Shown piece after piece: positions 22,765 to 62,080 of a stretch of 64,000 bases of DNA. The stretch covers positions 276,101 through 340,100 of the forward strand of contig JAVXUO010000985.1 in the NCBI GenBank assembly GCA_033065855.1, read 5' to 3'. The translations under genes were made by a program, and so were the position numbers. The stretch's first letter is position 1; each line of letters begins with the position of its first letter. The DNA is from Escallonia rubra. Its lineage: Eukaryota; Streptophyta; Magnoliopsida; Escalloniales; Escalloniaceae. The notes below the pieces were generated by a model. It ran no database searches and had not been told where the DNA came from. It worked only from the letters and a program-made list of their open reading frames with translations.

Positions 22765-23287
22765 TTACTTGATGAAGTTCTTAAGTTTTACTAAAAAAAC
22801 AAATCTATGTATATACATACATATTTTGTCTCTTAAAAATCCGTCTATAACCTTTTTTGTTGATATGTACTAGTAAAATTGTGCTTATTTTTCTGTTCCC
22901 ACTCTCTTTTCTTAGATGATTAGCCTTCATTCAATAAATTAGAAATTCTTCTTTATATATATGTGCCTAACTAGGGCTGCCTGTTTTCCCTTTTTCTCTT
23001 ATTGAACTTGTATAAATCACAAACCTAATGGGTCAATCCTATACACGGTCTATGCTTGTGCATAAATTAACTATAAACAAACCCTGTCATTAATCCTTTT
23101 TTTTGTGATAAATTACCTAAGAACTTTATTAATAAACAAAATACATACTACAAGAAAATATAACTTTATTTAAATTAAAGAGCTAAAGATAACAAAACAG
23201 TGTATAACTTAATTATCTCCACCCCTAATCCTCAAATGGGATCCTATCGAAGAGTCGACTGAAAAAAAGAATAAAGCCGTAGGGCTT

Positions 23288-23532
23288 TTACCTGGATTCA
23301 CGGTTAGTCTGTCTTCCCATAAATCATGACCACTGATGGCGTTGCCTTCATGTTCAGGGTATGAAGGCCAGGACAAGTTTGACGATTGTATTGTGGGAAT
23401 TCCTAGGAGGAGCAAAGTCTCTGGCCCCAAACAACAAATTAATAGGGTCCAACTTTGCAACTTGAAACGTTGAGGAACGTAAAACACATGGAACCATAAT
23501 TTGGAGCAACATCTAGACCGGAGGTGAAATGA
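23288..23532. repeat. Highly conserved island shared by the three duplicons (unit 1 copy)
   Basis: About 245 bp beginning TTACCTGGATTCACGGTTAG is nearly identical to 34398-34637 in unit 3 and very similar to about 28770-29020 in unit 2. The flanks on both sides are clearly more diverged. In unit 2 one frame is open for 98 codons (28689-28985) and contains FEDCIVGIPRRSEVSGPKQQ. I do not recognise the protein. It may be a captured exon fragment; frameshifts break it in units 1 and 3. Confidence 0.6.
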
Positions 23533-24602
23533 CGTCGTGCTTATATTCAATGGCCAAGTTAGAAATTATGTTTAAGCTGGGCATTGAAATATAAAGGATA
23601 AACCTGCAAAATTATATTTGAGCTCTATTTTAATTGTTTGAATTATACTTTTGTTCTTAAAGTAGTTACATAGAGACATTTTTAAGCTGTTTATAGTTTA
23701 TCGCTAAAGTGGCTATATGACAGCACTGTTAAGGCCTTCAGCGTTAAAAGTGAAGCTCAAATATCACTTCTCCTTATTTTTGTGAGTTATGCAAAATGAC
23801 TTAAAAGGGACATTCTCTTCTCAGAAATTCGTACTTTTTAGGTGGGCATTTTCTTCAATATAGTCTAGAATGCCTAATACCCAGGAAAGAAAAATGCGAG
23901 CAACACATGGTCATGTGCCCACCGATGCCGCTTGCTGCCTCCACCACTAAATGTCGCATGAAAATTCCTATCGCGTAGTATATGTTCACTATAGATCTTG
24001 GAAGTATGTCGCGTGGAAATTAACTACCGTGTAATATACGTTCACTATAGATTTTTGAAGAGTTTCTTCGAAATTTATTTAGTACCCGCGGTCCAAACAT
24101 TACATCGAAGTATTGACATCTATGGCATCTTCTGGTTAGGCCAATTGTTTTTTGAGTCTATATATGATCCGTCCCATGCACGTTATATTTACTATTTGAA
24201 TAGTCTTATTAGCATTTTCTAAACAATTGATGACATTTACTGGCTATGATTTTATGCGAGTAACTAGTCTTCTGATCTTTATAGAAACGATTAGTAGTAT
24301 ATTCTTCTGGTTTTTCTTTTTCTTCCGTTTCCCTTTTAGTTGGGGGTGCTCTTCAACTTTTTTAACTGATTTCTTTAAACTAACGTATCCAAACATATGA
24401 CCATTCTAGCCGAGACTACCCGCATACAATTGTTTTTACACACTCTTTCAATTGTACCTTATTAAAGCACAAAGGATATGAGATTTACGTAGTCCAGGGA
24501 TTCATAGATTGCTGCAAAGTGTATTTATCATCGACATTTAGCCTAAAAGAATAGAGTTCCCTTTAATAAACGGGTTATCACGATGTTCCCAAACCAAGAA
24601 AA

Positions 24603-24608
24603 TGACGT
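24603..24608 (+). promoter_or_regulatory. TGACGT motif conserved upstream of PR-1 copies
   Basis: The phrase AAGAAAATGACGTGCCCGA, with TGACGT at 24603, lies about 450 bp before PR-1 copy B. The same phrase occurs before the unit 2 pseudogene (TGACGT at 30255) and copy C (35813). TGACG is the core bound by TGA bZIP factors, which act with NPR1 at PR-1 promoters. Conservation may simply reflect the recent duplication, so regulatory use is inference. Confidence 0.45.
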
Positions 24609-25000
24609 GCCCGACAATAGGTAGTCAAGGTTTTGCATTCGATTATATTACGTCACATCTATCTCCATTGTAGCGAATATTTTTGTGTCCAATTGCACCC
24701 GTCAAATGGCCATTACGAATCGTTGATAAATAAAGATTCTTTTTGTTCCTGCTTTTGTATTTGAGGATTGTGTTAGATATGATATTTTCTTAAATTAGAA
24801 AAGATTAGAAGATCGAGTTGCATTATTGAACAAAACATGAAACACGAACCTTATCATCTTTTAACTTTCTCCCGAGGTTAACGCCAATCTAAGATCCATG
24901 GGGAAGACCATGCTAGTCTACTTTGGTCCTCTTGTGTATTGACAATAACGTAAACAAAAATGTAGAAAGGACTGAGAACTTTCAACAGTATTCTTGCACC

Positions 25001-25008
25001 TATAAATA
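25001..25008 (+). promoter_or_regulatory. TATA box of PR-1 copy B
   Basis: TATAAATA followed by CCCCTTA lies 55 bp before the ATG. An identical box and context precede the unit 2 pseudogene (30703-30710) and copy C (36207-36214). Confidence 0.75.
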
Positions 25009-25055
25009 CCCCTTACACAGCAAGCCTAATTTTCCATCAACCATCAAATAAAAAA

Positions 25056-25544
25056 ATGGGGTGGTGTAACATGTCAGTAGCATTCCTTGGTGTCCTAGGG
25101 TTAATAATGGTTCATTCCACCCAAGCCCAGAATTCCCAACAAGACTACCTCGACGCGCACAATGCGGCTCGTGGCGAGGTGGGCGTTGGGCCTCTCACAT
25201 GGGACGACGCCGTGGCAGCCTACGCTCAGAACTACGCTAATCAGAGAATCGGAGACTGCGCCCTTATGCACTCGCAGAACGGACCGTATGGTGAGAACCT
25301 TGCGATTGGCAGCGGTGACTTGAGCGGCAAGGCGGCCGTGGATTTGTGGGTAGGAGAGAAGCAATACTATGACTACAATTCTAACTCTTGCGCATCTGGG
25401 CAGATGTGCGGGCATTACACTCAGGTGGTTTGGCGCAACTCCGCCCGTGTCGGGTGCGCTAGGGTTCAGTGCAACAATGGTTGGTGGTTCATCACTTGCA
25501 ACTATGATCCTCCTGGAAACTATGTTGGCGAGCGTCCTTACTGA
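25056..25544 (+). CDS. PR-1-like secreted CAP protein, copy B
   Basis: An intronless gene for 162 residues. The signal peptide is about 24 residues ([15 protein letters not shown]... ending HSTQA), with mature start [15 protein letters not shown]. The CAP domain carries [33 protein letters not shown] and CNYDPPGNY, ending VGERPY. The full set of six cysteines is present. The C-terminus fits the CAPE signature CNYx/PxGNxxxxxPY known from tomato PR-1b, so release of [11 protein letters not shown] is possible. It lies in duplicon unit 1, with the TATA box at 25001. It is very close to copy C. Induction in defence is expected from the family but not shown here. Confidence 0.95.
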
Positions 25545-27079
25545 AACTATACATCAACAAGAAGAATAAATAGCTAAAAAGCACAACTAGAAGATGTGCT
25601 GGGCCTATGTATTGTGTGTTTGGACTTTGGCCTTTGGTCTCCCTTCCCTGATTTACGAGAAAATAAAACAAGTGTGTTCAGTATATCTTTCATTTATTCG
25701 ATGCAGTCATTTGTGATGAATGTTTTTCTTCTACTTGAATCTCCTTGCTCTAAATTTTAAGACATGCAACATGACGCTGAACAACATTGCGATGGTGATA
25801 CCCATTGATGGTACTCAGTAAGCCACTTTAATAGCATTTAGTAACTATCAGCGAGACCAGATCTGAGTCAAAGTGGCCTTAAATTTCATCAATGAACAGT
25901 ATAACCTCTCATAATGTTCCGTTGCTTTCATCAATATGTATATGCCCCTACTCCCCCTTGGTAGAGGTAAGAATAAGGAGTCCATTGCCCACATATATAG
26001 GTTGACTTATGCTGACAAGACTTGGTTCGATCCATGCACGTGTAAATTTATCTTTCGCACTTACTTGATGTGGGGCTAACACAACTCCACACGTGAACCT
26101 CAATAATTTTCGTGGTACGTGTGAATCCACCGGCCATCAAAGTTCCCCCCTGAGTTCTGCCAAGAACCACCATTATTCCAAGAGTTTGGACACGAGTGGA
26201 AGCCGTGGGTACCCAACCATGGGATCTGATTTCATGTTAGGGGACATAACTCGGAGCCCAATATTGTCCACCAAGATGCCCCATATATATAGGATAATCT
26301 CCAACTTAACCTAACAGCTTAAGCCTGTAGAACTTTGTCTCCGTCCATAAGTATATACATCCAAAACTTATTTTTCACACCAAGTTGACTGATTCGATAT
26401 GATACCAACACAACTTCATACTTGAACCTCAACACCCCTGTATACCCTCTTATATGTGGTGAATCGTGTCGTCAAAACTTGTAGACCCCTTTACCCTCGG
26501 CATATGGTGCCTAGCGTTAATCGATATATTCATCATCTGTTCTATAACATTGTCAACATGTTTCATGCTCATTGAAAAGAAAAAAATTAAAAAATACGAT
26601 GGCATCTATATAGACACAAAAATGGGGCCGCGTAATTAAGAGCCACTGGTGCAGAACCAGTAGTACATTTTACATATGTGGAACTGCAAGAATAGCACAC
26701 ATATAGCACATTGATGACCAAAAGAAGAGGTTCTAAAAGGAGTTTGCAAATGACATATGTAGGAAAGGTACTGTGATATTTGAATCTTGAACAGTTAAAG
26801 GCTTTTAATGAAAATTGAAGTGTTAACATATATAACAATTTGCAATAAAACCGTGCAGAGTAAATTCTAAGAGAAATTAATCTTAGTTGCTACGAAGAAC
26901 CAACAACAAAGCTAACCTACAAGTGCGTTTATTTTATTAAAGATAGCCAATGCTTGGATATAGTTATAATCTCTAAAAAGTCAAGTTTTTGGGACTTAGG
27001 TTCTTAATTAAGTATTAGTTACGTGCATAATGAGGAATGCAATGAACCCTCTAAGAGGAAGGGTTTTTCCTTAAACAAA

Positions 27080-27581
27080 ATGAGGTGGTGTAACTGTAAC
27101 ATTTCAGCAACTCTGGTATGCGTCTTGGGGCTATCAATGGTGCGTTATACTCTAGCCCAAAACTCACAGCAAGACTACCTCACTGCACAAAATGCCGCTC
27201 GTGCTGGTATGGGCCTCACGCCTATGACGACATGGGATAACAAGGTGGCACCGTAGCGCGGAAGTATGCTAACCGGAGGATGGCGGATTGAATGCTTGTG
27301 CACTCGCAGGGGGACCCCTATGGTGAGAATGTTACGATTGGTAGCGGTGACTTGATGGGCAAGGAGGCCGTGGACCTGTGGGTAGGAGAGAAGGCCATGC
27401 TATGATTAGGATTCCAACTCCTGCGAGCTGGGGGGAAATGTGTGGGCACTATACTCAGGTAGTGTGGCGCAACTCGGTTCGGCTTGGGTGTGCTAGGGTT
27501 CAGTGCAACAGTAGTGGGTGATGGTTCATCACTTGCAACTATGATCCTCCGGGCAACTATATTGCGCAGCGTTCTTATTAA
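27080..27581 (+). pseudogene. PR-1 pseudogene in duplicon unit 1
   Basis: Starts MRWCNCNISATLVCVLGL, keeps a signal-peptide-like region and [16 protein letters not shown] (His of HNAAR changed to Gln). A TAG follows WDNKVAP near 27254. More stops follow: TGA in GCGGATTGAATG and TAG in TATGATTAGGATTCC. Small indels also disrupt the frame near GGGGGGAAATGTG and GTGGGTGATGG. The end still reads [15 protein letters not shown]. Two of its stops are shared with the pseudogene at 38078, so it was already broken when the duplicon copied. Confidence 0.9.
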
Positions 27582-28529
27582 AGAAGCTCGTTATATATTC
27601 ACCTCCAATCCAAATTCTCTGTATTCCCCTCTCCTCTTTTCCTACTGATACCCAGCAACAAATCAATATATACTGTCAGGTGAATTTTTGGTCAAAATAA
27701 TCTGGTGTTCTAGCTTTGAACAAAACTACATTGTGTGTGTGAGAGAGCGTGAGACCAAATTGGTATTCTGTTCTTATCTATCTACATGTTTGAGCCGAGC
27801 TTAAAATAGAGGTTTGCACAAAAATTGGGTATATGTCCACTTTTTCACAAAGCCTCGTCTCAATTAATCGTGGATTATAACATATAGTCATCACTTACAA
27901 CGAGTATCCATATTAAATAGCCTCTGAGAACTTAAATAAAAAAGTTGTGTCTAAACGAAAGGGCCGTATTCATTGAGAAGTTTCGCAATGTAATTTTTCG
28001 TCGATATACATGAGATTAGACAATTTTTATAGTACTGGATGCAAGTTTTAACATAACCATCTGAAATCTGAAAAAAGTATTACACCATGAAGGCTTTCGC
28101 ATTACCAAAGAGATCTATGATATATTTCGATTCCCGTTTTTAGCAAAAGCGCCAACAATTTTGAGATCGATGTAATGCTAAAGATTCATGCATAGTAAGT
28201 AGTATTTATGGTAATTCGAAAGATTTATTTGGCCAAGGAAGGTGGATATTAATAGGTGATCAATGTAATGATAAGATCAAAAGCGAACAACCTAAACCTT
28301 GATACTATATGACCATATTTATTCAACTTCAATTCTTGATTTTACTCATTATTATTCTAAAAGATGGAGATGCGTAGCGACCCAATGTTATATGACATTT
28401 TTATACATCTTTCAATTCTTGCAAATATTAGAAAGCAAAAAATAACTAACTAAAGTAATTTATCTGGCCACTTTTACATGCAAAGTACGATGAGTGCATC
28501 TGATGACCGGAGTTGTCCAGGAGTAAATT

Positions 28530-28611
28530 GTCACTAGAGATATTTAACGACTATTAATTGTCACTATATATGAGGTTGAAGGAAGATTCCTACAACGAGG
28601 GTAGCAGCCAA
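28530..28611. mobile_element. Half copy of foldback MITE at the unit 1/unit 2 junction
   Basis: GTCACTAGAGATATTTAACG...GGTAGCAGCCAA matches only the right half of the complete foldback element at 47437-47664 (its bases 47583-47664). The left half is absent. It sits exactly where homology of unit 1 to the other units ends and that of unit 2 begins. Confidence 0.75.
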
Positions 28612-30758
28612 AGTTTGTTAAAAATATAATACATAATACAAGAACATATAACTTCATTTAAACTAAAGAGCTACAGATAACAAAAACAATGTATAACTTA
28701 ATTATCTCCTCCCCTGATCCTCAAATGGAATCCTGTCGAAGAGTCGACAGGAAAAAATTGAAAAAAGCCGTAGAGCTTTTGCCTGAATTCACGGTTAGTC
28801 TGTCTTCCATGAATCATGACCACTCATGGCGTTACCTTCATGTTCAGGGTATTAAGGATAAGTTTGAGGATTGTATTGTGGGAATTCCTAGGAGGAGCGA
28901 AGTCTCTGGCCCCAAACAACAAATTAATAGGGTCACAACTTTGCAACTTGAAACGTTAAGGAACGTAAAACACATGGAACCATAATTTGGAGCATACAGG
29001 TCTAGACCGGAGGTGAAATGATATCGTGCTTATATTCCATGGCCAAGTTGGGCATTGAATAGAAAGGATAAAAACTGTAAAATTGATATTTGAGCTTTAT
29101 TTAAATTATTTGAACTATACTTTTATTACTAAAATAATTATATAGAGACACTTTTAAGGTCTTTAGAGTTCAACGCTAAAGTGGTTATACGACAATATTT
29201 TAAAGTCTTTAGCGTTGAAAGTGAAATTCAGATATCACTTTTCCTTATTTTTTGTGAGCTATGCAAAATGACTTAAAAATGACATTCTCTTCTCAGAAAT
29301 TTAGAATTTTTAGGTGGGCGTTTTCTTCGATATAGTCTAAAATGCCTAATACACAGGAAAGCAGGTGGTCATGTGCCCACCGATGACACTTGCTGCCTCC
29401 ACCACTAAATGTCGCATGAAAATTCATATCGTGTAGTATACGTTCTTTATAGATCTTTGAAGTATGTCGCGTGGAAATTAACCATCGTGTAATTATTATG
29501 TTCACGATAGAGTTTCTTGGAAATTTGGTACCTGCACACCAAACATCACATCGAAGTATTGACATCTATGGCATCTCCTGGTTAGGCCAATTGTTTTGGA
29601 AGTCTATAAATTTAGTCCACTTTTTTTTTTATGCTTAAAACTGTAATTACATATGACCCGTCGGTATAGGGAATGGAACTCGGGACCTCGAGGTCATTCC
29701 TTAATCCACTTAAGAGGTCTATATATGATCCGTCCCATGCATGTTATATTTACTATTTGAATAGTCTTATTAGCATTTTCTAAACAATTGATGACATTTA
29801 CTGGCTATGATTTTATGCGAGTAACTAGCAAAGGTACAATCACAAGATGCAAGCAGGGTGTGCCAATAGTCTTTTTGGAGGGCCAATGAAAACTAACCTT
29901 GTTAAGTCAAGGTAACTAGTCTTCTGATCTTTATAGAAACGATTAGTAGTATATTCTTCTGGTTTTTTCTTTTTCTTCCGTTTCCTTTTTAGGTGGGGGT
30001 GCTCTTCAACTTAATTAAGTGATTTCTTTAAACTAATGTATCCAAACATATGACCATTCTAGCCGAGGCTACCAGCACACAATTGTTTTTACACACTCCT
30101 TCAAGTACCTTATTAAAGCACAAAGGAAATGAGATTTACGTAGTCCAGGGATTCATAAATTAGCTGCAAAGTGTATTTATCATTGACATTTAGCCTAAAC
30201 GAATAGAGTTCTCCTTAATAAACGGGTTATCACAATGTTCTCAAACCAAGAAAATGACGTGCCCGACTATAGGTAGTCAAGGTTTAGCACTCGGTTATAT
30301 CACATCACGTCTATTATATAGCGAATATTTTTGTGTCCAATTGCACCCTTCAAATGACCATTAAGAATCGTTAATAAATAATAAAGATCCTTTGTTTTCC
30401 AGCTTTTGTATTTGTACGTGGTTGTGTTAAGATATGATATTTTCTTAAATTAGAAAAGATTAGAAGATCGAGTTGCATTATTTTTGTGTTTTCGATTGAG
30501 TTAGATATGATATTATCTTAAATTAGAAAAGATTAGAAGAGTTACATTATTGAACTAAACTTGAAACACGATCGCCAATCTAGATCCATGGGGAAGACCT
30601 TGCTAGTCTACTTTGGTCCTTCTGCGTATTGACAATAGCGTAAGCCAAAATTTACACAAAAAAAAAAAAAAAACTGAGAACTTTCAAGAGTACTCTTGCA
30701 CCTATAAATACCCCTTATACTACAAGCCTAATTTTCCACAACAACATCTAAATCCACA

Positions 30759-31099
30759 ATGGGGTGGTGTAACATGTCAGTAGCATTTCTTGGTGTCCTA
30801 GGGTTAATAATGGTTCATTCCACCCATGCCCAGAATTCCCGTACGGTGAGAACCTCGCGAAAGGCAGCGGTGACTTCACCGGCAAGGCGGCTGTGGATTT
30901 ATGGGTTGGAGAGAAGCAATACTATGACTACAATTCTAATTCTTGCGCATCCGGGAAGGTGTGCGGGCATTACACTCAGGTGGTTTGGCGCAAATCGGCC
31001 CGTGTCGGGTGCGCTAGGGTTCGGTGCAACAATGGTTGGTGGTTCATCACTTGCAACTATGATCCTCCTGGAAACTATGTTGGCCAGCGTCCTTACTGA
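30759..31099 (+). pseudogene. PR-1 copy with 148-bp frameshifting deletion
   Basis: The promoter (TATAAATA at 30703), ATG and signal peptide through AQNS match copies B and C almost exactly. Compared with copy C, the bases equivalent to 36345-36492 are missing. The join reads AATTCCC|GTACGG, and the two ends share CC. 148 is not a multiple of three, so translation from the ATG leaves the PR-1 frame and ends at 31112 after 117 residues. The C-terminal part (30893-31099) remains open in the correct frame with [12 protein letters not shown] and [16 protein letters not shown] normal CAP protein cannot be made. The secreted out-of-frame product is probably meaningless. Confidence 0.92.
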
Positions 31100-32027
31100 A
31101 ACTATACATTAACTAGAAAAATAAAGAATAAAAAGCACAACTAGCTAGAAGCTGTGCGGGGGCTATGTATTGTGTGTTTGGCCTTTGGTTTCCCTCTCTT
31201 GATTTTCCAGAAAATAATACAAATGTGTTAGATATGCAGTATATCTTTCGTTTATTCGGTGCAATTATTTGTGAGAATTTTGTACTTCTACTAGAATTAC
31301 CTTGCTCTAAATTTTTAAGACATGCAATGACGCTGAACAACATTGCGATGGCTATCTGAGTCAAAGTGGCCTTAACTTTCCTCAATGAACTGTATAACCT
31401 CTCATAATGTTCCATTGCATTCATCGATATGTATTTTCCCCTACTCCCCCTTGGTAGAGGTAAGAATAAGGAGTCCATTACCCACATATATAGGTTGACT
31501 TACGCCAACAAGACTTGGTTCCATCCATGCATGTGTAAACTTATCTTTCACACTTACTCGATGTGGGGCTAACACAACTCCGCATGTGAAACTCAATAAT
31601 TTCTGCCTCACATGTGAGCTAGTCCACCAGCCTTCGAAGTTCCCCCTCGAGTCATGCCAAGAACCACCATTCTTCCAAGAGCTACGGACACTAGTGGAAG
31701 GCGTGGTTAGCCAACCATGGGCTCTGACATAACATGAAGCCCAATGCCCATCAAGATGCCCCATATATGTAGAATAATCTCCAACTTGACCTAAAAGCTT
31801 ATACCCGTAGAACTTTGTCTCCATCCGTCTACATATGTGCAAAACTTGTTTTTCACACTAAGTTGACCAATTCGATACGAGACTAATACAAAATCACACT
31901 TGAACCTCAACACCCTGTAGACCCCTCTCCTCTTTTCATGCTGATAGCAACAAATCAATATTTACTGCCAGGAGAATTTTGGTCAAACTCGTCTGGTGTA
32001 TTCTAGCTTTGGACAAAACTAACATTT

Positions 32028-32028
<1 letters not shown>

Positions 32029-32068
<40 letters not shown>
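32029..32068. repeat. GT/GA compound microsatellite
   Basis: About ten GT units followed by about ten GA units. The equivalent places in unit 1 (near 27732) and unit 3 (near 39138) have only short, interrupted runs, so the expansion is specific to unit 2. Confidence 0.85.
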
Positions 32069-33312
32069 CCAAATTGGTATTCTGCTTTAGCTATCTACAT
32101 GTTTGAGCCGAGCTTGAAAGAGAAGTTTGCACAAAAATTGGGTATATATCCACTTCTTCACAAAGCCCCGTCTCAAGGATTATAACTTAGTCATCACTTA
32201 CAACGAGAATCCATATTAACTAGCCTCCAAAAATTTAAATAAAAAAGTTGTGTCTAAACAAAAGGGCCGTTATCCATTGAGAAGTTTCACAATCTAAACT
32301 TAATTTTTCGCCAATACACAGGAGATTAGACAATTTTTATATTAGTGGATGCAAGTTTATATCACCATGAAGCCTTCCGCATTACCAACGAAAGTATATT
32401 TCGATTCCCGTTTTTTAGCATAAGCGCCAACACTTTTGACATTGCCGGGGAAGGTGGATATCAATAGATGATTAAAGGCAATGATAAGATCAAAAGCCAA
32501 CAACCTAAACCTTGGATATATGACCATATTTATTCAACTTCAATATCTTGATTTTACTCATTATTGTTCTACAAGACGGAGATGCGCAGTTGGCGGCGAC
32601 CCAATGTTACAATGAGATTTTTATTCAAGTATACCTTTTCAGTTCTTGCAAATATTAGAAAGCAAAAAATGATTGAGTAAAGTAATTTCGCTGGTCAATT
32701 TCACATCCAAACTACGATGAGCGTTTCTAATGACCGGAGTTGTCAGGAATAAATAAATATAGAGATCTAGGCTTCTAGCTTTGTGAACGTAGAGAGTGTT
32801 AACTCCAGTTTTCTAAAGCACAGTAGACTTTATGGCTGAGATGGCTATAATCTATAAAACTCTTAAACTTATGAAATATCTCTACTATTAACCCCCAAAA
32901 AAAAAATTTATTTTTGCATTGCATTTAAGAGCTAATTAATTTGGACCAAATACTTTTAACTAAGGGCTTGTTGCAATTCCGTATCTTCGAATTAAAAGAT
33001 CGTAAAGTTTGCTTTGTTAATGTGGATTTTTTTAGCCTCTTCCGGTCCTTTTTTCTTTTTAGAAATTTACAAACCTTCTTAATTGCGTTATACATTTTAT
33101 AACTAATTATTTGGGTTTTATAATTTTGAAAGAAAGAAAGTAATGTTTCTAATTTGAAGGGGAACTCAATGGCGGTTTAGACTTTATTATTTTTGTCGTT
33201 TTAGAAAATTATTACTGGTACTTTTGTCGTTGCAAAAAAATTGATCGATTTAAGTAGCACAGTTTTGAAGCGAAACTCGCAGAAGATTTTGCAAAGCCAT
33301 AACAACATGTTA

Positions 33313-33345
<33 letters not shown>

Positions 33346-33348
<3 letters not shown>

Positions 33349-33835
33349 AGCTGATCCGTTGAGAGCGTGGGCAAAATAGGAGAAGTTGCAAGCGCGATCT
33401 GACCGTCCATCCCGAAAGATGGACGTGCCAGATCGCGCCTTTTTCGAAAGCTGTCAGTCGTCCGCCATACAGTATGGCGGACGGGTTTTTTTACCAAATT
33501 GCCCCTTTGCGCCTGTCCGCTAAACTGTATGGCGGAGGACATTAAATTCCTGATGGGAGACAGCCAAAAGACGTCCGCGATACTGTATGGCGGACGTCCC
33601 CTAGGCTGACACCTGTCCTTAGGCTGACACCTTTTTGCCCCAACACTTAAAATTTTTTTTTTTCGACCCTATTTACGTCCGCTATACTATATGGCGGACA
33701 GTCAAGGAGAAGGAAGCCTCCCCAACACTTAGTTTTTTTTCGGCCCTATGTACGTCCGCTAAACTATATAGCGGACAGTCAAGCAGAAGGAAGCCTCGGC
33801 TAAACTATTTTGCCCACGCTCTCAACGGATCAGCT

Positions 33836-33837
<2 letters not shown>
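33346..33837. mobile_element. 492-bp non-autonomous TIR element with five palindromes
   Basis: The ends are inverted repeats of 33-34 bp: left 33346-33379 begins GGGAGCTGATCCGTTGAGAG, and right 33805-33837 is its complement ending CGGATCAGCTCC, with one base fewer. Both sides are flanked by long TA runs (33313-33345 and 33838-33886), so insertion was into TA repeats and the target duplication cannot be read. Inside lie five 23-bp palindromes at 33460, 33515, 33573, 33677 and 33754. Each has GTCCGC at the left arm and GCGGAC or a one-base variant at the right. A larger hairpin lies at 33392-33438. A 77-bp tandem repeat covers the last two palindromes. It codes for no transposase. The superfamily is unknown to me. 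It sits at the unit 2/unit 3 junction. Confidence 0.85.
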
Positions 33838-33889
<52 letters not shown>

Positions 33890-36206
33890 CTTGATGAAGT
33901 TCTTAATTAATTTGTAACTTAAAAAAAACATATAAGCATACACATATTTTGTCTCTTAATGATGCGTCTAATCTATTTTTGTTGATATATATTGGTGGAT
34001 TTTGTTTATTTTTCTGCTCCTACTCTCTTTCTTAGATGATCATTAGCCTTCTTTCAATTACAAAATTTTCTTTGTTTGTGCCTAGGACTGCCTATTTGCC
34101 TTTTCTCTTTTATGGAACTTACAAAAATCATAAACCTGATCGGACAATCCTCTACAGGCCAGGCAATATGCTTGTCCAAAAATTTACCATATACATATTG
34201 TGTTATTACTCTTTTTAACGGTTTAAAATTTTCATTATTGAAAGAGAGTATATAATACAAAAAAGTATAATTTTATTTGAAATCCAAACCTAAAGACAGC
34301 AATAACGACTCATAACTTAATTATCTCGACTCCTAATCCTCAAATAAAATCCAATCGAAGAGTCGGACGGAAAAAAAAAAAAAAAACCGTAGAGCTTTTA
34401 CCTGGATTCACGGTTAGTCTGTCTTCCATAAATCATGACCACTGATGGCGTTGCCTTCATGTTCAGGGTATGAAGGCCAGGACAAGTTTGACGATTGTAT
34501 TGTGGGAATTCCTAGGAGGAGCAAAGTCTCTGGCCCCAAACAACAAATACGGTCCAACTTTGCAACTTGAAACGTTATGGAACGTAAAACACATGGAACC
34601 ATAATTTGGAGCAACGTCTAGACCAGAGGTGAAATCATATCGTTCTTATATTCAATGGCCAAGTTAGAAATTATGTTTAAGCTGGGCAGATACAATTTTA
34701 AAATTGGTAATTGAGTTCTATTTTAATTAGTTGAATTATACTTTTATTCTTAAAGTAGTTATATAAAGACACTTCTAAGGTCTTTAAAGTGGGCTGATTT
34801 GAACTATACTTTTATCTTAAAGTGATTGTATGATAGCACTTTAGAGGCTTTACTGTTGAAAGTATAACTCAAATAGTGAGAAGTGAAGTTGAAATATATG
34901 TCACTCATCCTTATTTGTATATATGAACTATGCAAAATGACTCAAAAAAGACATTCTTGTTTCAGCAATTCAGAATGTTTAGGTATACATTTTCTTCGAT
35001 ATAGCTTAGCCAAGTCTACACGATAGAAAAACGGGAGCAGCAGGTAGCCATGAGTCCACAGATGCCGCCTACTTCCTCCACCACTAAATATGTCGCATGG
35101 AAATTCCTATCGTGTAGTATACGTTCATTATAGATTTTTGAAGTTTCTCGCATGGAAATTTCTACCGTGTAGTAGACGTTCAATGGAGAATTTTTAAGAG
35201 TTTCTTGAAAATTTGGTACCTGCAATCCAAACATTACATCGAAGTACTGACATGTATGGCATCTTCTGGTTAGGCCAATTGTTTTGGAAGTCTATGAACT
35301 TAGTCCACTTAAGACCACTGTATATTATCAGCCCAAGAACAGTATATTTACTATTTGAACAGTCTTATTAGCATTTTCTAAACAATTAATGACATTTCAA
35401 TAACTGTGCAAGTAACTAGGAAAAGTACAATCACGCGATGCAAGCAAGGTATGTCGATAGTCGTTTAAGGAGTGCCAATGAAGCTAACATTTTCTAAATC
35501 TAGAGAACTAATCTTCTTATCTTTATACAAACGACTAGTAGTATTCTTCTGGAATTTTTTATTTTTCTTCCGTTTCTTTTTAGGTGGGGTTGCTCCTCAA
35601 CTTAATTAACCGATTTCTTTAAACTAATATATCCAAACGTATGACCACTCTAGCCGAGGCTATTTATACACTCTTTCAAGTACCTTATTAAAGCACGAAG
35701 AAGATGAGATTTAGGTAGTCCAATAGGATTTATAAATCGCTGCAAAGTACATTACTCACATTTAGGCTAAAATACTAGAGTTGTTTATCACGATTTTCCA
35801 AAATCAAGAAAATGACGTGCCCGATAATAAGTAGTTGAGGTTTTGCATTTGGTATTACGCCGCATCTATCTCCATTGTAGGGAATACTTTTGTATCCAAT
35901 TGCACCCGTCAAATGGCCATTAAGAATCTTTACTAGATAAAGATCCTCGGGTTTTTCTATTTTTGTATTTTGGATTGAGCTAGATATGATATCTTCTTTC
36001 TTATAGAAAAGATTAGAAGAGTTACATTATTGAGGAAAGCATGAAACACGATCCTTATCTAATCAGCTTTTAACTTTCTACCGAGTTTAATGCCAATCTA
36101 AGATCCACGGGGAAGACCATGCTAGTCTATTTTGGTCCTCTTGCGTATTGACAATAACGTAAGCCAAACTCTACTAAAAACTGAGAACTTTCAACACTCT
36201 TGCACC

Positions 36207-36214
36207 TATAAATA
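36207..36214 (+). promoter_or_regulatory. TATA box of PR-1 copy C
   Basis: TATAAATA in the same CACC...CCCCTTAT context as copy B, 56 bp before the ATG. The TGACGT motif at 35813 lies 450 bp upstream. Confidence 0.75.
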
Positions 36215-36262
36215 CCCCTTATGCTACAAGCCTAATTTTCCACAACTTCTTCTAAAACTAAA

Positions 36263-36751
36263 ATGGGGCGGTGTAATATCTCAGTAGCATTTCTTGGTGT
36301 CCTAGGGTTAATAATGGTTCATTCCACCCATGCCCAGAATTCCCAACAAGACTACCTCGACGCGCACAATGCGGCTCGTGCTGCGGTGGGCGTTGGGCCT
36401 CTCACATGGGACAACGCCGTGGTAGGCTATGCTCAGAACTACGCTAATCAGAGGATTGGAGACTGCGCGCTTATGCACTCGCAGGGTGGACCGTATGGTG
36501 AGAACCTCGCGATTGGCAGCGGTGACTTCACCGGCAAGGCGGCTGTGGATTTATGGGTTGCAGAGAAGCAATACTATGACTACAATTCTAATTCTTGCGC
36601 ATCCGGGCAGGTGTGCGGGCATTACACTCAGGTGGTTTGGCGCAACTCGGCCCGTGTCGGGTGCGCTAGGGTTCAGTGCAACAATGGTTCGTGGTTCATC
36701 ACTTGCAACTATGATCCTCCTGGAAACTATGATGGCGAGCGTCCTTATTGA
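36263..36751 (+). CDS. PR-1-like secreted CAP protein, copy C
   Basis: An intronless gene for 162 residues, very close to copy B. The signal peptide starts [15 protein letters not shown] and ends HSTHA; the mature protein starts [53 protein letters not shown] and CNYDPPGNY are all intact, ending DGERPY. Differences from B are scattered, for example VAEKQ for VGEKQ, NNGSW for NNGWW, and Asp for Val in the C-terminal peptide. Like copy B it fits the CAPE signature, with peptide [11 protein letters not shown]. It is the only intact PR-1 gene of duplicon unit 3. The frame shows no disruption, and the TATA box is conserved. Confidence 0.95.
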
Positions 36752-38077
36752 AACCATACCTCATCAAGAAGAATAAATAGCTAAAAAGCACAACTAGAAG
36801 ATGTGCTGTGGCTATGTATTGTGTGTTTGGCCTTTGATTTCCCTCTCTTGATTTTCCAGAAAATAATACAAGTGTGTTAGAAATGCAGTATATCTTTCAT
36901 TTATTCGGTGCAATTATTTGTGAGAATTTTGGACTTCTACTAGAATTACCTTGCTCTAACTTTTAAGACGCGCAGCATGACGCTGAACAACATTACAATG
37001 GTGACAACCATGGATAGTCAGTAAGCCACTTTAATTGCATGTAGTAACTACTAGGGAGACCAGATCTGAGTCAAAACGGCCTTTGATTTCATCAATGAGC
37101 TGTATAACCTCTCATAATGTTCCATTGCATTCATCTATATGTATATGCCCCTACTCCCCCTTGATAGAGGTAAGAATAAGGCGAGTCCATTGCCCACATA
37201 TATAGGTTGACTTACGCCAACAAGACTTGGTTCCATCCATGCATGTGTAAACTGAACCCCGATGTCCACCAAGATGCCCCTAAAAGCTTAAGCCTGTAGA
37301 ACTTTTCTCCATCCTATATATATATGGACACACACACGCCCAAAACTTATTTTTCACACCAAGTTGACTGATTCGATATGAGACCAACATAACTTCATAC
37401 TTGAACCTCAACACCCCTGTATACCCTCTTATATGTGGTGCCTTGTGTCGTCAAATCTTGTAGACCCCTTCGGCATATGGTGCCTAGCGTTAATCGATAT
37501 ATTCATCAAATGTTCTGTAACATTATCAACATGCTTCATGCTCAATGAAAAGAAAAAGAAAAAAAAAACACTTTGGCATCTTAAGTGCATATAGACACAA
37601 AAATGAGGCCGCGTAAGAGCCACTGGTGCAGAACCAGTAGTACATTTTACGTGTGTGGAACTGCAAAAATAGCATACATATAGTACATTGATGACCAAAA
37701 GAAGAGGTTCTAAAAGGAGTTTGCAAATGACATAGAAAAGAAGAGGGTGCTGTGATATTTGAATCTTGAACAGTTAAAGGCTTTTAATGAAAATTTAAGT
37801 GTTGTAACATAACAATTCGCAATAAAACCATGCAGAGTAAATGCTTTGTTGTTGGTTCTTCTTACTTGCTAAGAAGAAGAACCATCAACAAAGCTAACCT
37901 ACAAGTACGTTTATTTTGTCAAAGAGATCCATTGCTTGGATATAGTTCTAATCTCTAAAAAGACAAGTTTTTGGGACTTGGGTTCTTAATTAAGTACTAG
38001 TTACGTGCATAATGATGGGTATTAAATCATAGGAATGCAATGTACGCTCTAAGAGGAAGGGTTTTTCCTTGAACAAA

Positions 38078-39004
38078 ATGAGGTGGTGTAACTGTAACAT
38101 TTCGGTAACTCTTGTATGTATCCTGGTGCACCACTGTAACTGTAACCGTCAATGGTGCACTACTCTCACAGCAGGACTACCTCACTGCACACAACGCCAC
38201 CCGTGCTGAGATGGCCCTCTCTCCTATGACATGGGACAACAAGGTGGCAGCCTAGCGCATAAGTATGCTAATCGGACTGAGGATGGCGGAATGAATGCTT
38301 GTGCACTCGAAGTGAGGCCCCTACTGTGAGAATATTGCAATTGGTAGCGGTGACTTCACGGCCAAGGCGGCCGCGGACCTGTGGGTAGGAAAGAAGCCAT
38401 ACTATGATTAGGATTCCAACTCCTGCGAGCTGGGGAGATGTGTGGGCATTATACTCAGGTAGTGCGGTGCAACTCGTTTCGGCTTGGGTGTGCTAGGGTT
38501 AGTGCAACGGTGGGCTGTGGTTCACCACTTGCAACCAGTGGCGGAGGGAAGGGGGTGGCATAGTGGGCACGTTCCCACCTCCACTCTTTGGCATGAGGTA
38601 AGTTTTTTACTATGAGTTTTATATTAATGATTTTATTACTTTGATGCCCCTACGAAAATTTAAAAATTTCAAGAACTTTTTTGAAGTCATTGTTCTTTTT
38701 TAACAATCAAGAAATTCTAACACTTGAATTTAATTTCACTTCTATCGCTATAGATCTATTGTAATACGTCTAATCCTTTTAAGAATACTTTATTGATTTT
38801 AATTCATTAGCATAGTGCAAGTACAAGAAATAGAATGCTAATTTTATTTCTCAAAACATAATTGTAAGTTTCATCTTTATTTATTTTGAACAGAACACGG
38901 GAAGATACATTTAAAACCTTAGTGTCTACTTTATACAAGATTTCTGACTCCGCCACCGCTTACAACTATATGATCCTCTACGATCTGGGCAGCGTCCTTA
39001 TTAA
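38078..39004 (+). pseudogene. PR-1 pseudogene of unit 3, split by a hAT-type element
   Basis: Starts MRWCNCNISVTLVCI like its unit 1 partner (27080). The signal-peptide region is altered by an insertion/deletion (GCACCACTGTAACTGTAACC). TAG stops occur at GCCTAGCGC and TATGATTAGGATTCC. The CAP1 region reads as TGTGGGCATTATACTCAGG. At 38536 a 423-bp element interrupts the CNYDPP codons, and the end resumes at 38959 with CTTACAACTATATGATCCTC. Without the element the order of PR-1 blocks is complete. Two of its stops are shared with 27080. Confidence 0.9.
38536..38958. mobile_element. 423-bp non-autonomous hAT-type element
   Basis: The ends are CAGTGGCGGAG on the left and CTCCGCCACCG on the right, an 11-bp inverted repeat with one mismatch. 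The element is flanked by CTTGCAAC (38528-38535) and CTTACAAC (38959-38966), an 8-bp target duplication with one change, which is the hAT hallmark. The target is the ACTTGCAACTATGATCC phrase of PR-1, so the pre-insertion site is known from copies B and C. The inside is AT-rich, with no transposase. CAGTGGCGGAG ends are familiar from plant hAT-derived elements. Confidence 0.88.
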
Positions 39005-40544
39005 AGAAGTTCATAATTCACCCCCAAGCCAAATTCTCTATGATCCCCTCTCCTCTTTTAATATTCATACCCAGCGTCAAATCACTATTTACTGCCAGGT
39101 GAATTTTGGTCAAAATCATCTGGTGGACAACAACATTGTGTGCGCGTGGGGAAGAGAGACCAAATTAGTATTCTGTTTCATTTATATACATGTCCGAGCC
39201 AAGCTTAAAGGAGAAGTTCGCCCAAAAATTGAGTATTTTTACACTCTGTTCGCAGAGCCTCCTCTCACTTAGTAGTTGATTGTAACTTCATCATCACTTA
39301 TAATGAGTACAACTAGCCTCTAAAAACTTAGATAAAAAAGTTCTATCCAAATGAAATCACCATTATTCCTTTTGGAAGTTTCACAAATCTAAACTTAATT
39401 TCCCGTCGGCATATAGGAGAGTAGACAAGTTTTATATTAGTCGATGCAAGTTTTAATATCACCATATGAAAGAACAAGGAAAATCGATAATAGATTTCGG
39501 TTCCCCCTTTATTATGCGCCGAGAATTTTGAGATCTCCGTTATGCTAAACATTTAGAAAGCAACATATGATCTCCGTCATGCATGGTATTCGAAACAGGT
39601 ATTTGGCCAGGGAAGGCGGATGTTAATTGATGATTAAAGGCAATGATAAGCTCAAAACTCAACAACGTAACCTTGGATTCAACCATATTTAATCAAGTTC
39701 AAAATTTGATCGTATTCATCACTCTAAAAGATGGAGATGTGCAGTAGGCGACCCGATATTATTTGATATTTTTACATACAAGTATGTCTTCCAATTTGTG
39801 CAAACATTTAGAAAGCAACATATGACTGGCTAAAGTAATTTCTTTGGCCACTTTTACATACAAAGTAAGATCTGCGTGTCAATGTAGATAGTGTTATCTA
39901 CATCTATATAAATTAAATTCAGTTTTATGGCTGAGACAGCTATTATAAAAAACGCGATCTTGAATTCATGAAATATATCTACTATTAACAAAAAATTAGA
40001 AAAAATTAGTTTTGCATTGCATTTAAGAGCTAATTCGTTTGGACCAAATACAGATTTAAGTACTAAAGGGCTTGTTGCAATTCCATATCTTTGAACTACA
40101 GGATCGTTCGCTAATCTGGATTTATTTCCTCTTCAGGCCCTTTTTCTTTTTAGAAACTTGCAACCATTCTGATTAAGATATATACTTTATAATGAATTAT
40201 TTTTTAAAAAAAAAATTTGAAAGAAGGAAATTAATGTTTCTAATTTAAAGGGGAAGTTTTGTCATTTTAGAAAATTATTAATGGTACTTTTGTCGCTGCA
40301 TGGCTCCAAAAGTTGATTTAAGTAGCGCAGTTTTGAAGCAAAAGTCACGGAAGATTCTGGAAAGGCATAACAACATGTTAGTTCCTAAATCTAATAGGAT
40401 TAGCAGGAGAGTAATCCTACTCCTACTACGTACAAATTTCAAAGAAGCAAAAGAAAAAAGAACGAGCAATCCAAATTCGATTATAGTTTGAGATTGATTA
40501 CTACCCACAATTCATAATGGAAAAGGATTCCTCCCACCCAACTC

Positions 40545-47436: not shown

Positions 47437-47664
47437 TTGGCTGCTACCGGGGTTGAAGGAATCTTCCTCCTACCCCTCATGTATAGTGACGATTAATGGT
47501 TGTTAAATCTTTCTAGTGACTTTTATTTAGTGACGCTAAAAAAGTGTTGTTAAGAGTTGTCGTTAAAAGTGTTAACAGAAAAGTCACTAGAGACATTTAG
47601 TGACTATTAATTATCACTATATATGGGGTTGGAGGAAGATTCCTACAACCGGGATAGCAGCCAA
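47437..47664. mobile_element. Foldback MITE, complete copy (228 bp)
   Basis: The left half begins TTGGCTGCTACCGGGGTTGA and GGAATCTTCC. The right half ends GGAAGATTCC and TACAACCGGGATAGCAGCCAA. The arms pair over about 80 bp, including AGTGAC and TCACTA blocks. There is no coding capacity. A half copy lies at 28530-28611. The superfamily and target duplication were not resolved. Confidence 0.8.
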
Positions 47665-48398
47665 AGTTTATTCGGGAAAAAATGGTGCTAACGTAAAATG
47701 TGGCGACTATGCCAGCTAGCCGAGTTATGCGGCACTAGCTTGATTTCCATATCAAACTGACCGAATAGTACTTGTCCCTTGAAATGAGGCTAGAGCCTGA
47801 GATAATAGCAAATTTCAGATTGGTGAAACAAGATAGTTGAGGGGTTGAAATGTGATTACCCCTTGATATAGGTTCATCGGTTAAGAACCATAATCTACCC
47901 GCGTAGAAGGAGAGAACTGCAGGTATAGCTACTTCACTTTTGCAGGGTCACATGCTTTCTATCTACTTTACCACACTAAAACATTACCAAACACCTTCAA
48001 ATTGAACTTGATGTTTGGTTGAACTCCCTCTCAGACGGATATTGCCCACGACATTAATTTGCACTAAATCACCATTTGTTCCGAAATTAACTTATCAAAG
48101 CTCTAACATCACAAGCCCTTTAGTACCAAGCCCAGCTCAGCTTAACCGCATTGCTTTTGCTGTTGAAGAAATTTTTAGATAAACCATGTGACTGACCATA
48201 AAAGTTACATAATTTTACTTGACATGATACGGCGGCCATTTTGCTTATAATTACATATTAAAAAAGATAGATATGCTTTGCTTCTAAGGAGGCAAATGCT
48301 TGACCAAATTAGTTTCGAAAGCCTTTGATTTGGTCCACAATCAGAGTAACAAGTAGAAATCTTCCAAAGGGAGAAAGTATATGCCATTCCAAATTTTT
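47665..48398. other. 3' flank of the XTH gene
   Basis: No gene is seen. This is moderately AT-rich DNA; its last part is probably the 3' UTR of the minus-strand XTH gene. Confidence 0.45.
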
Positions 48399-59522: not shown

Positions 59523-59631
59523 GCCATGCGTGCGGCTGATAAGGCGAATGAGCTGTGTGCACGTACGCATAACAGAGGTGCCAGCCATTGGCATCACTGG
59601 CAATTTAATACCACTGATTATTCCCGCTTTT

Positions 59632-59662
<31 letters not shown>

Positions 59663-59803
59663 CTTTTATAACTTTAAAAAAACTTATAAGAATGAGCCAT
59701 GCGGCTGATAAGGCGAATGAGCTGTGTGCACGTACGCATAACAGAGGTGCCAGCCATTGGCATCACTGGCAATTTAATACCACTGATTATTCCCGCTTTT
59801 ATC

Positions 59804-59835
<32 letters not shown>

Positions 59836-59866
59836 CTCTTTTAAAACTTTAAAAAAACTTCTAAGA
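59523..59866. repeat. Tandem duplication of about 172 bp upstream of the DUF1005 gene
   Basis: Two adjacent copies start at 59523 and 59696. They share GCGGCTGATAAGGCGAATGA, GTGTGCACGTACGCATAACA, a TA microsatellite and AACTTTAAAAAAACTT. They are near-identical outside the TA tract, whose length and interruption differ between copies. They lie 200-550 bp upstream of the minus-strand DUF1005 ATG. Confidence 0.9.
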
Positions 59867-62080
59867 AAAGAAATCGTTAATTTCCATCGCTTCATATTTT
59901 TGCGCTCTGTTGTTATCGTCAAGAGTTTTTAAAAAGTACTTATTAATGTCTTGAAACGATGTTATACTAGCTTTTAGTAACAAGTGAAAGATATTAATTT
60001 TTCAAAAGTAAAATATGGTTGTAAACCTCCTTTCATAATGTCATTAAAAATACGAACATGTGGTCGACAGTGATGACGGGTGGTTTGTTTTGTCATATGT
60101 GGGTGGTGACGACGATGGTGTTGGGTTAGCGACCGCGAGCAACGGCGTCAAGGTGGTTTGATGGGGAAAGAAAGAGAAGAACTGGATCAAAAACTAGGGT
60201 TAACCGGCTTTTAAGAGCAATTTTCGTGAAAAGTTAATACGTCAAAAAAAACTTTGAAGGGTAAATAGACACCCATTTATAACCCATGTAAACGAATGGA
60301 TTGGAAAGGTTGCAAAAGTTTTAATTGATATATACCCGGTTACATAAATGGAAAGTCCTGAATAACTTTTAATTTGACGGATTTGGAGGGACGAACGAGT
60401 TTGGTTTGTGATTGCTATCCTACGTATTTTAAGTAAGAAAGAAGTGGAGTGTGGACAAATATTGGGTGGTGAATGAATTTTATTTTATTTTTTATTTCTT
60501 GAAGAAGGTAGGTGGTGATTTATGCTTTTCTTTTTTAATTTTCTTTCTTGATTAGTCGTAGGAATGTTGTGTGATTGGGTTAGCTTAGGGTACAAAACAA
60601 CTGGTGAACAGCTGGCAGACAACCAGATCTGCGCCAGGTTGGAGCAAACTGGACTGTAGTTTGAACCTCTTTAACCAACTTTCATGCGCCTGGGTCCCAC
60701 ATGCCACCACATCTAGGCTTCCAGACTATTCTTCAATTGGTCTATGCTTACGGCAAATGCAGACCCGACCCAAAAAGAAGGGGAAAGCAATAGCTGTTGG
60801 ATTGGTTTGGTAGAATAATTTTGTGTACCACAACGGATCTTTTGTGATTTAGATTGGCAATTGGCAATTAAATCAGCTGTCACGTCTCTCCATTCGTGCC
60901 ACCTATCCAAAAAATATATATATATACTAGTTTTTTTTAGTTTTTTAAAAATAAAAGTTTCAAGCCAAAATATATCTTGTCATTGTTGTGTGTGACAATG
61001 CATAAAGGAAAAAGAAGGAACAAAATGGCATATTTGTTGGGCTTATCTTTTTTTTTTTGGGTGCTTAACATGTTGTTTGGTTGAACGCAAGAATTATATC
61101 AAATCAGCTAAACCCGTAGGTCTTAGAGCTTAGTCCTTCCAACCGTGAGATCAAATGAAATTGCCTTGAATGACGACTTTTTTCGATTGTCGAACACTCG
61201 AACCTCATCTAGCGTTCTTATCTACCTTCGTTAAATTATATCAGTAAGCATTTTACTTAAGAATCGTCGTTAGCATTACGGAAACTGTTGACTAAGGAAT
61301 ATGTGGTATATTTTTCTTACTTGTTGAGTTTATCCTAGTTTTGAGCATGAAATGTGTCAATGTATCACGGAAAAATAGTTGGGCATGTGTGTTTGTAACA
61401 TATTAGTTGTACAATGGAGTACTAAATGATTCATCTTAGTACTCCGTAATAGATAGATTCTCTCACTTTTGACTCCACTCACCCAAAAATACTAGAAAAG
61501 TGATACATTAATAATAACTTAATATGTCATCAATATGCTTTTTGTTTGTGGCTTCGTTAGGTGTATGAAAAATTTTAAAAAAAAAATGAATGTCAACTTG
61601 TGGACTTTGCAGTATTTAAAAAGATATACGTGTAATCAGTAATTTATTTAGACAATGTCTTCATTAAATTGCCAGTGCAAGTTCTTAATCTACGGAGTAA
61701 TTTATTGACTTTTGGCGGCAGCTTATTTGAAATGCAAGTTGGGCTCAGCTCGATGGGCCTTGACCTTTCGTGCAGAGTTCAAGCCCAAGCTTCGTTCACA
61801 GATGATTTTTGCAAATTTGAGATAAATTTATTTGCAACTTTGAAATTGTCACCTGGTGCATCCTTGGATGTCATAGTAGAAACATTACGTCCATCTTGAT
61901 GGATCTACGATGGTACTTGAACATGTAACCTTGAACAGAAAAAAGGAGATATCAATGTGATAGTTGAGTAGCGAAGGTTTCTCTCTTTTTTTATACAAAG
62001 TCATAAGTTTGAGTCTCATGAGTAGAATTTTTCAGATAAGAGAGGGAGCGGGCAACTTGAATATTGAGTAGCCCTTGCAT

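Follow-up and report, generated by a model that had tools for sequence, protein, structure and literature searches.

Arrays of a 23-bp dyad, candidate protein sites, in a microsatellite-targeting Mutator-like element family of Escallonia rubra

Introduction

What is the compact, palindrome-rich element that sits inside a (TA)n microsatellite of Escallonia rubra, and what might its palindromes do? The original prediction was made on a window of 64,000 nucleotides, the whole stretch of DNA that was analysed. It described a terminal inverted repeat (TIR) element at 33346..33837, did not recognise its family, treated the palindrome array as an unusual feature of this copy and offered protein sites and small-RNA precursors among its guesses. 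Microsatellite-targeting Mutator-like elements (MULEs) are already known (PMC4486113, PMC5907723, PMC8449440); these and the other published systems are cited here from the consulted sections of each paper. We follow the element and its palindromes through the genome to which they belong and weigh the functions that the arrays may have.

The window element and its setting

The element is 491 bp long and lies within a (TA)n microsatellite (33346-33837). Its features are as follows.

33314..33345, no strand: left flanking (target) (TA)16 microsatellite
33346..33379, plus strand: left TIR, 33 bp perfect starting at 33347, with an extra terminal G at 33346
33392..33438, no strand: subterminal hairpin, arms GCGCGATCTG..CGTCCATC / GATGGACG..CAGATCGCGC, conserved in the family
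33460..33482, plus strand: dyad P1, 11/11 pairs, the first dyad, at +114 from the element end
33515..33537, plus strand: dyad P2, 8/11 pairs
33573..33595, plus strand: dyad P3, 10/11 pairs
33602..33632, plus strand: short direct repeat TAGGCTGACACCT, two copies, 18 bp apart
33656..33797, plus strand: 77-bp unit, 1.8 copies, 89% identity to the internal 78-bp array of full-length elements
33677..33699, plus strand: dyad P4, within the first 77-bp unit, 9/11 pairs
33754..33776, plus strand: dyad P5, within the second 77-bp unit, 9/11 pairs
33805..33837, minus strand: right TIR, 33 bp, lacking the subterminal part present at the other end
33838..33886, no strand: right flanking (target) (TA)24 microsatellite

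The architecture originally described stands in nearly every detail. The TIRs at 33347-33379 and 33805-33837 are identical over 33/33 bp, the hairpin at 33392-33438 and the tandem duplication of the 77-bp unit are present, and the five palindromes start at 33460, 33515, 33573, 33677 and 33754 as predicted. The arms, given as GTCCGC and GCGGAC or close variants, match GTCCGC-N11-GCGGAC exactly in four of the five and with one mismatch in the fifth. To call them long perfect palindromes was too strong, since 11, 8, 10, 9 and 9 of 11 pairs are Watson-Crick and only one dyad is therefore perfect. Searched with up to 3 mismatches, the dyad pattern has 8 matches in the window where 4.6 are expected, and 12 of 100 shuffles reach 8; all five copies with 0-1 mismatch fall inside the element. 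The element contains 5 hairpins, compared with a mean of 0.27 and a maximum of 3 in 200 dinucleotide shuffles, in a count (11-bp arms, at most 2 mismatches) that covers the hairpin at 33392-33438 but not the weakest dyad. Its G+C content is 51% versus 37% in the flanks, and its CpG is not depleted (1.05 versus 0.73-0.79 in the flanks).

The window is plant nuclear DNA: the 10 frames scanned include PMR5-type esterase, PR-1/CAP, XTH, DUF1005 and MADS domains. A prokaryotic or viral origin of the palindrome was also considered and rejected, as the exact pattern has 0 matches in genome_contigs and 0 in viral_contigs, and the TIR 0 in viral_contigs. Positions 22767-40382 form a tandem array of about three units with a PR-1-like sequence in each, and the element with its TA tracts sits where the second and third units join (32444-33314 matches 39606-40382; 33889-35397 matches 22767-24238). 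A clean empty site was sought in the other units of this array; none is readable, because on the left unit homology reaches no further than the TA tract, and on the right it breaks off no more than 3 bp from the tract on that side. The window holds further repeats. Another small repeat element, short and built around a near-palindromic core (GGTTGAAGGAAGATTCCTACAACG and its variants), lies at 28530-28619, the first junction between PR-1 units, and near 47.5 kb (47437-47672), where it occurs in both orientations. At 59531-59867 a 169-bp sequence is tandemly duplicated; its copies match at 95%, and each contains an (AT)n tract.

A high-copy family in the Escallonia genome

Genome searches were run against the window's own assembly (566 Mb, 3222 contigs), and the match counts are lower bounds. 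A 30-mer from the TIR, allowing up to 3 mismatches, has 836 + 813 = 1649 matches genome-wide; the reversed control has 0. Twenty-seven complete elements were assembled: 26 with both ends placeable, drawn from 100 places listed or from the first 30 loci, plus the window copy. They were picked by TIR and not by palindrome and form a convenience sample, mostly from low-numbered contigs. They span 0.4 to 17.6 kb, and each of the 27 carries between 3 and 58 dyads. It had been suggested that the palindromes might be chance local repeats if other members lacked them; their presence in all 27 argues against chance, and the array is no oddity of one copy but a mark of a large family, found near both ends and between genes. 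Among 73 distinct ends, the first 260 bp hold three dyads in 63, two in 9 and one in 1, and in 60 of the 73 a dyad lies at exactly +114.

TA tracts, a few of them short or interrupted, flank 24 of the 27 complete elements on both sides, the window copy included, and one element on one side only. The two elements with no TA tract at either end both show a 9-bp target duplication (TACTTCAAA, AAGAAAGTA), which is readable in these 2 of 27 only and not in the 24 TA-flanked ones, the window copy among them. Five contigs (C77, C528, C815, C333 and C653) start or stop within about 30-320 bases of a family element; the assembly is probably interrupted at copies flanked by (TA)n.

Over its first 449 bp the window copy shares 98% identity with L057, an element of 1002 bp. 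At its far end L057 has a mirror-image subterminal part where the window copy has a bare repeat, and for this reason we read the window copy as a deletion derivative. We take the window element for a non-autonomous copy, shortened by internal deletion, within a Mutator-like family that is young, recently active and present in many copies.

Large relatives and their genes

The original prediction recommended a search for an autonomous partner, and putative ones are present. Six large elements that end like the window copy, five of them 11.4-12.7 kb long and the sixth 17.6 kb, share a common plan: a FAR1/MULE/SWIM transposase gene, a conserved 153-aa frame and, antisense, a gene for a plant mobile domain (PMD) and an Ulp1-type C48 protease domain. 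The Pfam scan covered frames of C77, C512 and the 5.3-kb L041; frames of the other elements were matched by place and partly by translation. Transposase domains in L037:1288-3615 are assigned with E = 2.9e-32 (PF10551), 2.3e-13 (FAR1) and 3.8e-4 (SWIM). In C77 a forward 776-aa frame holds the FAR1, MULE and SWIM domains, an antisense region holds PMD in two frames and, in another two, the parts of a C48 protease (PF02902 positions 2-120 and 144-208), and the antisense 153-aa frame lies between the two regions. C77, C833 and C829 have the 776-/777-aa frame intact; in C815 a stop interrupts it, and in C528 and C512 it is divided into two frames. The counterpart of the 153-aa frame in C512 is only 27% identical and on the opposite strand. 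C829 (L055+L056), the 17.6-kb element, has two PMD-type genes, the second judged by sequence likeness, the most dyads among the 27 elements (58) and a 9-bp target duplication outside TA.

The gene copies are closely similar. Transposase copies are 97-100% identical and 54 of 59 lack an internal stop (59 scored of 4772 first-look candidates); copies of the 153-aa frame are 93-100% identical, with 147 of 150 free of stops (150 scored of 1357 candidates). Pairwise dN/dS is 0.17-0.54 at dS 0.01-0.05 for ORF1 (six pairs, four copies) and 0.16-0.52 at dS 0.01-0.15 for ORF3 (ten pairs, five copies, without C512), with few changes in either. The family looks young and its genes look to be under constraint, and the large relatives are putative autonomous members. 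The 153-aa frame has no Pfam or NCBIfam match at a useful E-value and nothing better than E = 0.38 in the PDB. Its AlphaFold model, of low confidence (mean pLDDT 58.6), has one long helix at residues 78-113; a bZIP-like reading of this helix was dropped, as there is no zipper.

The dyad across the family

In a profile built on 27 sequences, short flanks included, the family dyad GTCCGC-N11-GCGGAC has the consensus GTCCGCTATACTRTATAGCGGAC over 404 sites, 189 of them distinct. Positions 1-6 and 18-22 are at least 95% conserved, a figure favoured in the arms by the finding of sites through likeness to the motif, while 7, 9, 11-13, 15, 17 and 23 are variable; 66 of the 404 sites are perfect. The genome search with the palindrome that had been recommended gives, at up to 2 mismatches, at least 17,405 matches on the forward and at least 17,580 on the reverse strand, with 0 for the reversed control. 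Many sites match both strands, so that the number of sites lies between these strand counts and their sum.

In the large relatives the dyads form arrays close to either element end and in the stretches that separate the genes. Three repeat contexts can be told apart. Subterminal dyads are spaced by 53-59 bp in most cases and by 32 bp in some; the other two contexts are a 56-bp array that follows ORF1 and a 78-bp array. These contexts have the 23-mer in common while the DNA between copies differs. Between contexts, the spacers of C77 reach only the alignment scores of shuffled sequence, apart from a marginal case, the P1-P2 subterminal spacer against the 78-bp class, for which 14 and 10 of 300 shuffles score as high. 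Spacers within the 56-bp context and within the 78-bp context match strongly, and no match is seen between the two subterminal spacers. Array length is highly variable between elements. Eight stretches selected by the dyad (L063-L070) have other spacers, and two of them (L064 and L069) have different but related TIRs, one found by script and the other read from the printed sequence. The same dyad despite altered TIRs or wholly different spacers indicates that the motif extends beyond the TIR family to which the window element belongs.

Conservation of the dyads exceeds that of their surroundings. In the 73 aligned ends, mean identity is 0.900 over all 69 dyad columns versus 0.824 in the spacers, and 1 of 163 circular shifts gives a difference as large; over 15 positions per dyad, chosen after the profile had been seen, it is 0.958 versus 0.824, with 0 of 163 shifts. 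In the six largest elements all 194 of 194 dyads fall outside the assigned ORF spans, which make up 33-48% of each element and run over frame breaks and likely introns. Two more open frames of at least 150 aa overlap dyad arrays (C528 7087-7815 and C77 10998-11498) and are taken as non-coding. The nearest dyad follows the ORF1 frame by 145-157 nt in four of six large elements and the ORF3 frame by 131 nt in three of five, ORF3-proximal dyads being missing in the other two; dyads also lie upstream of ORF1 and ORF2.

Symmetry and covariation at P1

P1 was isolated genome-wide by a context pattern with the outer arms fixed and the inner 11 bases free, which has 699 + 748 exact matches, 100 of them listed. 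Among the matches listed, positions 7 and 17 form a Watson-Crick pair in 69 of 100 (T-A 32, C-G 23, G-C 14) against 31.7+-4.5 in shuffles, and positions 9 and 15 in 66 of 100 against 39.9+-4.4, with 0 of 5000 shuffles as high in either case. The 11/13 pair shows no excess among the same 100 (69 versus 72.5 in shuffles), as expected if pairing needs a three-base loop, and the 8/16 and 10/14 pairs are almost invariant. Reduced to 32 distinct P1 sequences, the counts are 19 against 9.4 for 7/17 (1 of 5000 shuffles) and 19 against 12.4 for 9/15 (44 of 5000); these shuffles, like those above, take the sequences as independent, and the relatedness of copies remains in the figures. Over 274 distinct sites, 7/17 and 9/15 are again in excess, and 1/23 and 11/13 are not. 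Mismatches at 9/15 of P1 are about equally T-G (7) and C-A (5), without an RNA-type wobble signal, so that the pairing looks to be at the DNA level. Among the five dyads of the window alone no covariation is seen.

Relation to known elements

Where does the family belong? It had gone unrecognised in the original prediction, and we assign it to the Mutator-like elements that target microsatellites. The putative partner has a MULE transposase domain, the 9-bp target duplication in 2 of 27 elements falls in the 9-11-bp range of MULEs, and TA on both sides in 24 of 27 is the habit of the (TA)n-targeting MULE/MITE class (MuTAnT, SaTar, Ac-mMITE). MuTAnT/AutoMuTAnT of Medicago truncatula (PMC4486113) likewise comprises short non-autonomous MULEs inside (TA)n. 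They duplicate 9 bp of target where they lie outside TA, their ends are G-rich and vary in length, four similar segments make up their foldback structure, and their larger partner has a Jittery-like transposase. The MuTAnT family differs in its TIR, which follows the mask GGGGTTTGCTAGAACA there and reads GGAGCTGATCCGTTGAGAGC here, and in its partner, which is 4.9 kb long with one ORF; no dyad array is described in the consulted part of that paper. SaTar of guayule and rice, including Micron (PMC5907723), and the pineapple Ac-mMITEs (PMC8449440) are also TIR elements in (TA)n of MULE origin, with 9-10-bp target duplications elsewhere, and TAFT is grouped with them as named in the same two sources. 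In contrast to our family, the string 'palindrom' occurs 0 times in the text of these two papers that was available, and no such arrays were found there.

The transposase domains, FAR1 N-terminal and SWIM C-terminal, fit the Jittery group, although a single ORF does not, as PMD-C48 and ORF3 are present too. In the consulted part of PMC6446971, an N-terminal FAR1 is listed for a Jittery subgroup, for two Phytophthora elements and for half of one Hop subgroup, and an antisense PMD gene for MUDR and related MULE groups. MULEs with antisense or captured PMD (PMC6446971, PMC5418596) resemble our family in having PMD beside a MULE transposase; they differ, as far as those sections describe them, from the combination seen here of an N-terminal FAR1 transposase, PMD beside C48 in one gene region, and dyad arrays. 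A search for the TIR and dyad strings in publications gave, among the matches listed, no title about transposons. In the open-access literature, a scope that mostly leaves subscription journals outside, no listed title or abstract opening describes the dyad or MULE arrays of this kind.

What may the dyad arrays do?

Based on these observations, we consider it probable that the window copy is a 491-bp, deleted, non-autonomous (TA)n MULE whose dyads are candidate sites of an element-encoded protein. Fixed outer bases, dyad symmetry, recurrence in several contexts, non-coding placement and dense arrays in short derivatives together lead to the protein-site reading, which was one of the guesses originally made. 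In the model that we propose, the dyads would be sequence-specific sites for an element-encoded, probably dimeric protein, and the candidate binders are the FAR1-domain transposase, the PMD-C48 protein and the 153-aa protein. By increasing its occupancy locally, the arrays would let the protein act on copies of its own family, and once bound it might mobilise these copies, keep their non-coding regions from silencing, or both. Short derivatives such as the window copy may have stayed mobile because they retained the ends and several dyads. Two observations speak against sites of this kind. The 7/17 and 9/15 pairs covary, and independent half-sites in plain duplex need no covariation; moreover, dyads lie shortly past stop codons, a position that would suit a 3'-end or insulator role as well. 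Tandem duplication and shared ancestry may also explain some of the dyad conservation.

The best reading is that the arrays may work, by analogy, like the VANC motif arrays of VANDAL elements. VANC binds short motifs tandemly arrayed in the non-coding DNA of its own family and induces methylation loss (PMC5735166, PMC10398659). The VANDALs of Arabidopsis described there are multigene MULEs with a dense short motif in non-coding regions, spread by tandem repeats, and the 194 of 194 non-coding dyads correspond to such an arrayed motif; the likeness is one of working and not of membership. The VANC21 motif is a 9-mer, YAGTATTAY, in one orientation and not a dyad, and VANC carries DUF1985 and DUF287 (PMC5735166, PMC10398659); in the frames given to our Pfam scan DUF1985 appears only at E = 0.04 and DUF287 is not reported. 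With a dyad as its motif and without a significant match to a VANC domain, the family is not filed here as VANDAL. VANDAL TIRs are absent or short and degenerate in the consulted sections of the same two papers, compared with a perfect 33/33-bp TIR here, a difference of little weight because some members of the clade have TIRs of 46-174 bp (PMC6446971). A bolder version of the model, which we advance only tentatively, is that the family has a sequence-specific anti-silencing or self-recognition system of its own, independent of VANDAL/VANC, in which the captured PMD-C48 (SUMO-protease-like) or 153-aa protein would be directed to the family's own dyad arrays, and non-autonomous copies would spread by virtue of their dense sites.

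Could the dyads instead act through, or be kept symmetric by, pairing of DNA strands? In one form of this explanation an extruded hairpin with a 10-bp stem and a 3-base loop is recognised; in the other, quasi-palindromes are repaired toward symmetry by template switching, a mutational bias that calls for no function, and such repair could give the same covariation pattern without selection. The Watson-Crick excess at 7/17 and 9/15 of P1, its absence at 11/13, a pair too near for a hairpin to close, and the balance of T-G and C-A mismatches, which points to DNA, are all as strand pairing predicts. Yet the outer positions 1-6 and 18-22 are fixed in sequence and not merely in pairing, perfect sites are few (66/404), and the covariation figures include the kinship of copies; we regard strand pairing as unlikely to be the main explanation.

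A role in RNA, through transcript hairpins 3' of genes that would end, stabilise or process messages or feed small RNAs, appears improbable. The distances of the nearest dyads past ORF1 and ORF3 would suit it, as would the T run that follows one site in the window and the strong predicted folding of the entire element (z = -16 as RNA and -15 as DNA, the TIRs and hairpins being part of the folds); a single terminator-like site lies in 33000-34200, where 0.7 are expected, and a bacterial terminator was rejected. Dyads are, however, present near both ends and upstream of ORF1 and ORF2 as well, the covarying pairs lack a G-U bias, and no Rfam family matches within the window, for which reason an Rfam RNA reading was set aside. 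Stems of 10 bp are also short for Dicer processing, and the small-RNA precursors of the original prediction find no support in this sequence analysis. The arrays could also recruit a host transcription factor or silencing factor in place of an element protein; that they adjoin the genes of one element family and persist amid unrelated spacers makes this a poor candidate too. Neutral by-products of tandem duplication in a foldback-type element, an explanation to which variable array length and the duplicated 77-bp unit of the window copy lend themselves, are already disfavoured and very improbable, given one 23-mer common to unrelated spacers, conserved above those spacers and placed outside the assigned coding spans.

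What would a protein-bound dyad array mean for elements of this kind? Ikeda et al. suggested that PMD proteins captured by MULEs serve in anti-silencing, and the consulted part of their paper names no target DNA (PMC5418596). PMD proteins of host genes have been linked to a promoter motif. The family described here brings together, in one genome, microsatellite-targeting MULEs, a putative autonomous partner and deletion derivatives, and nearly identical candidate binders accompany the dyad arrays in that same genome. It offers a concrete candidate for the targets of PMD anti-silencing: a high-copy 23-bp dyad, with some 17,000 or more sites, that lies beside the genes whose products may bind it.
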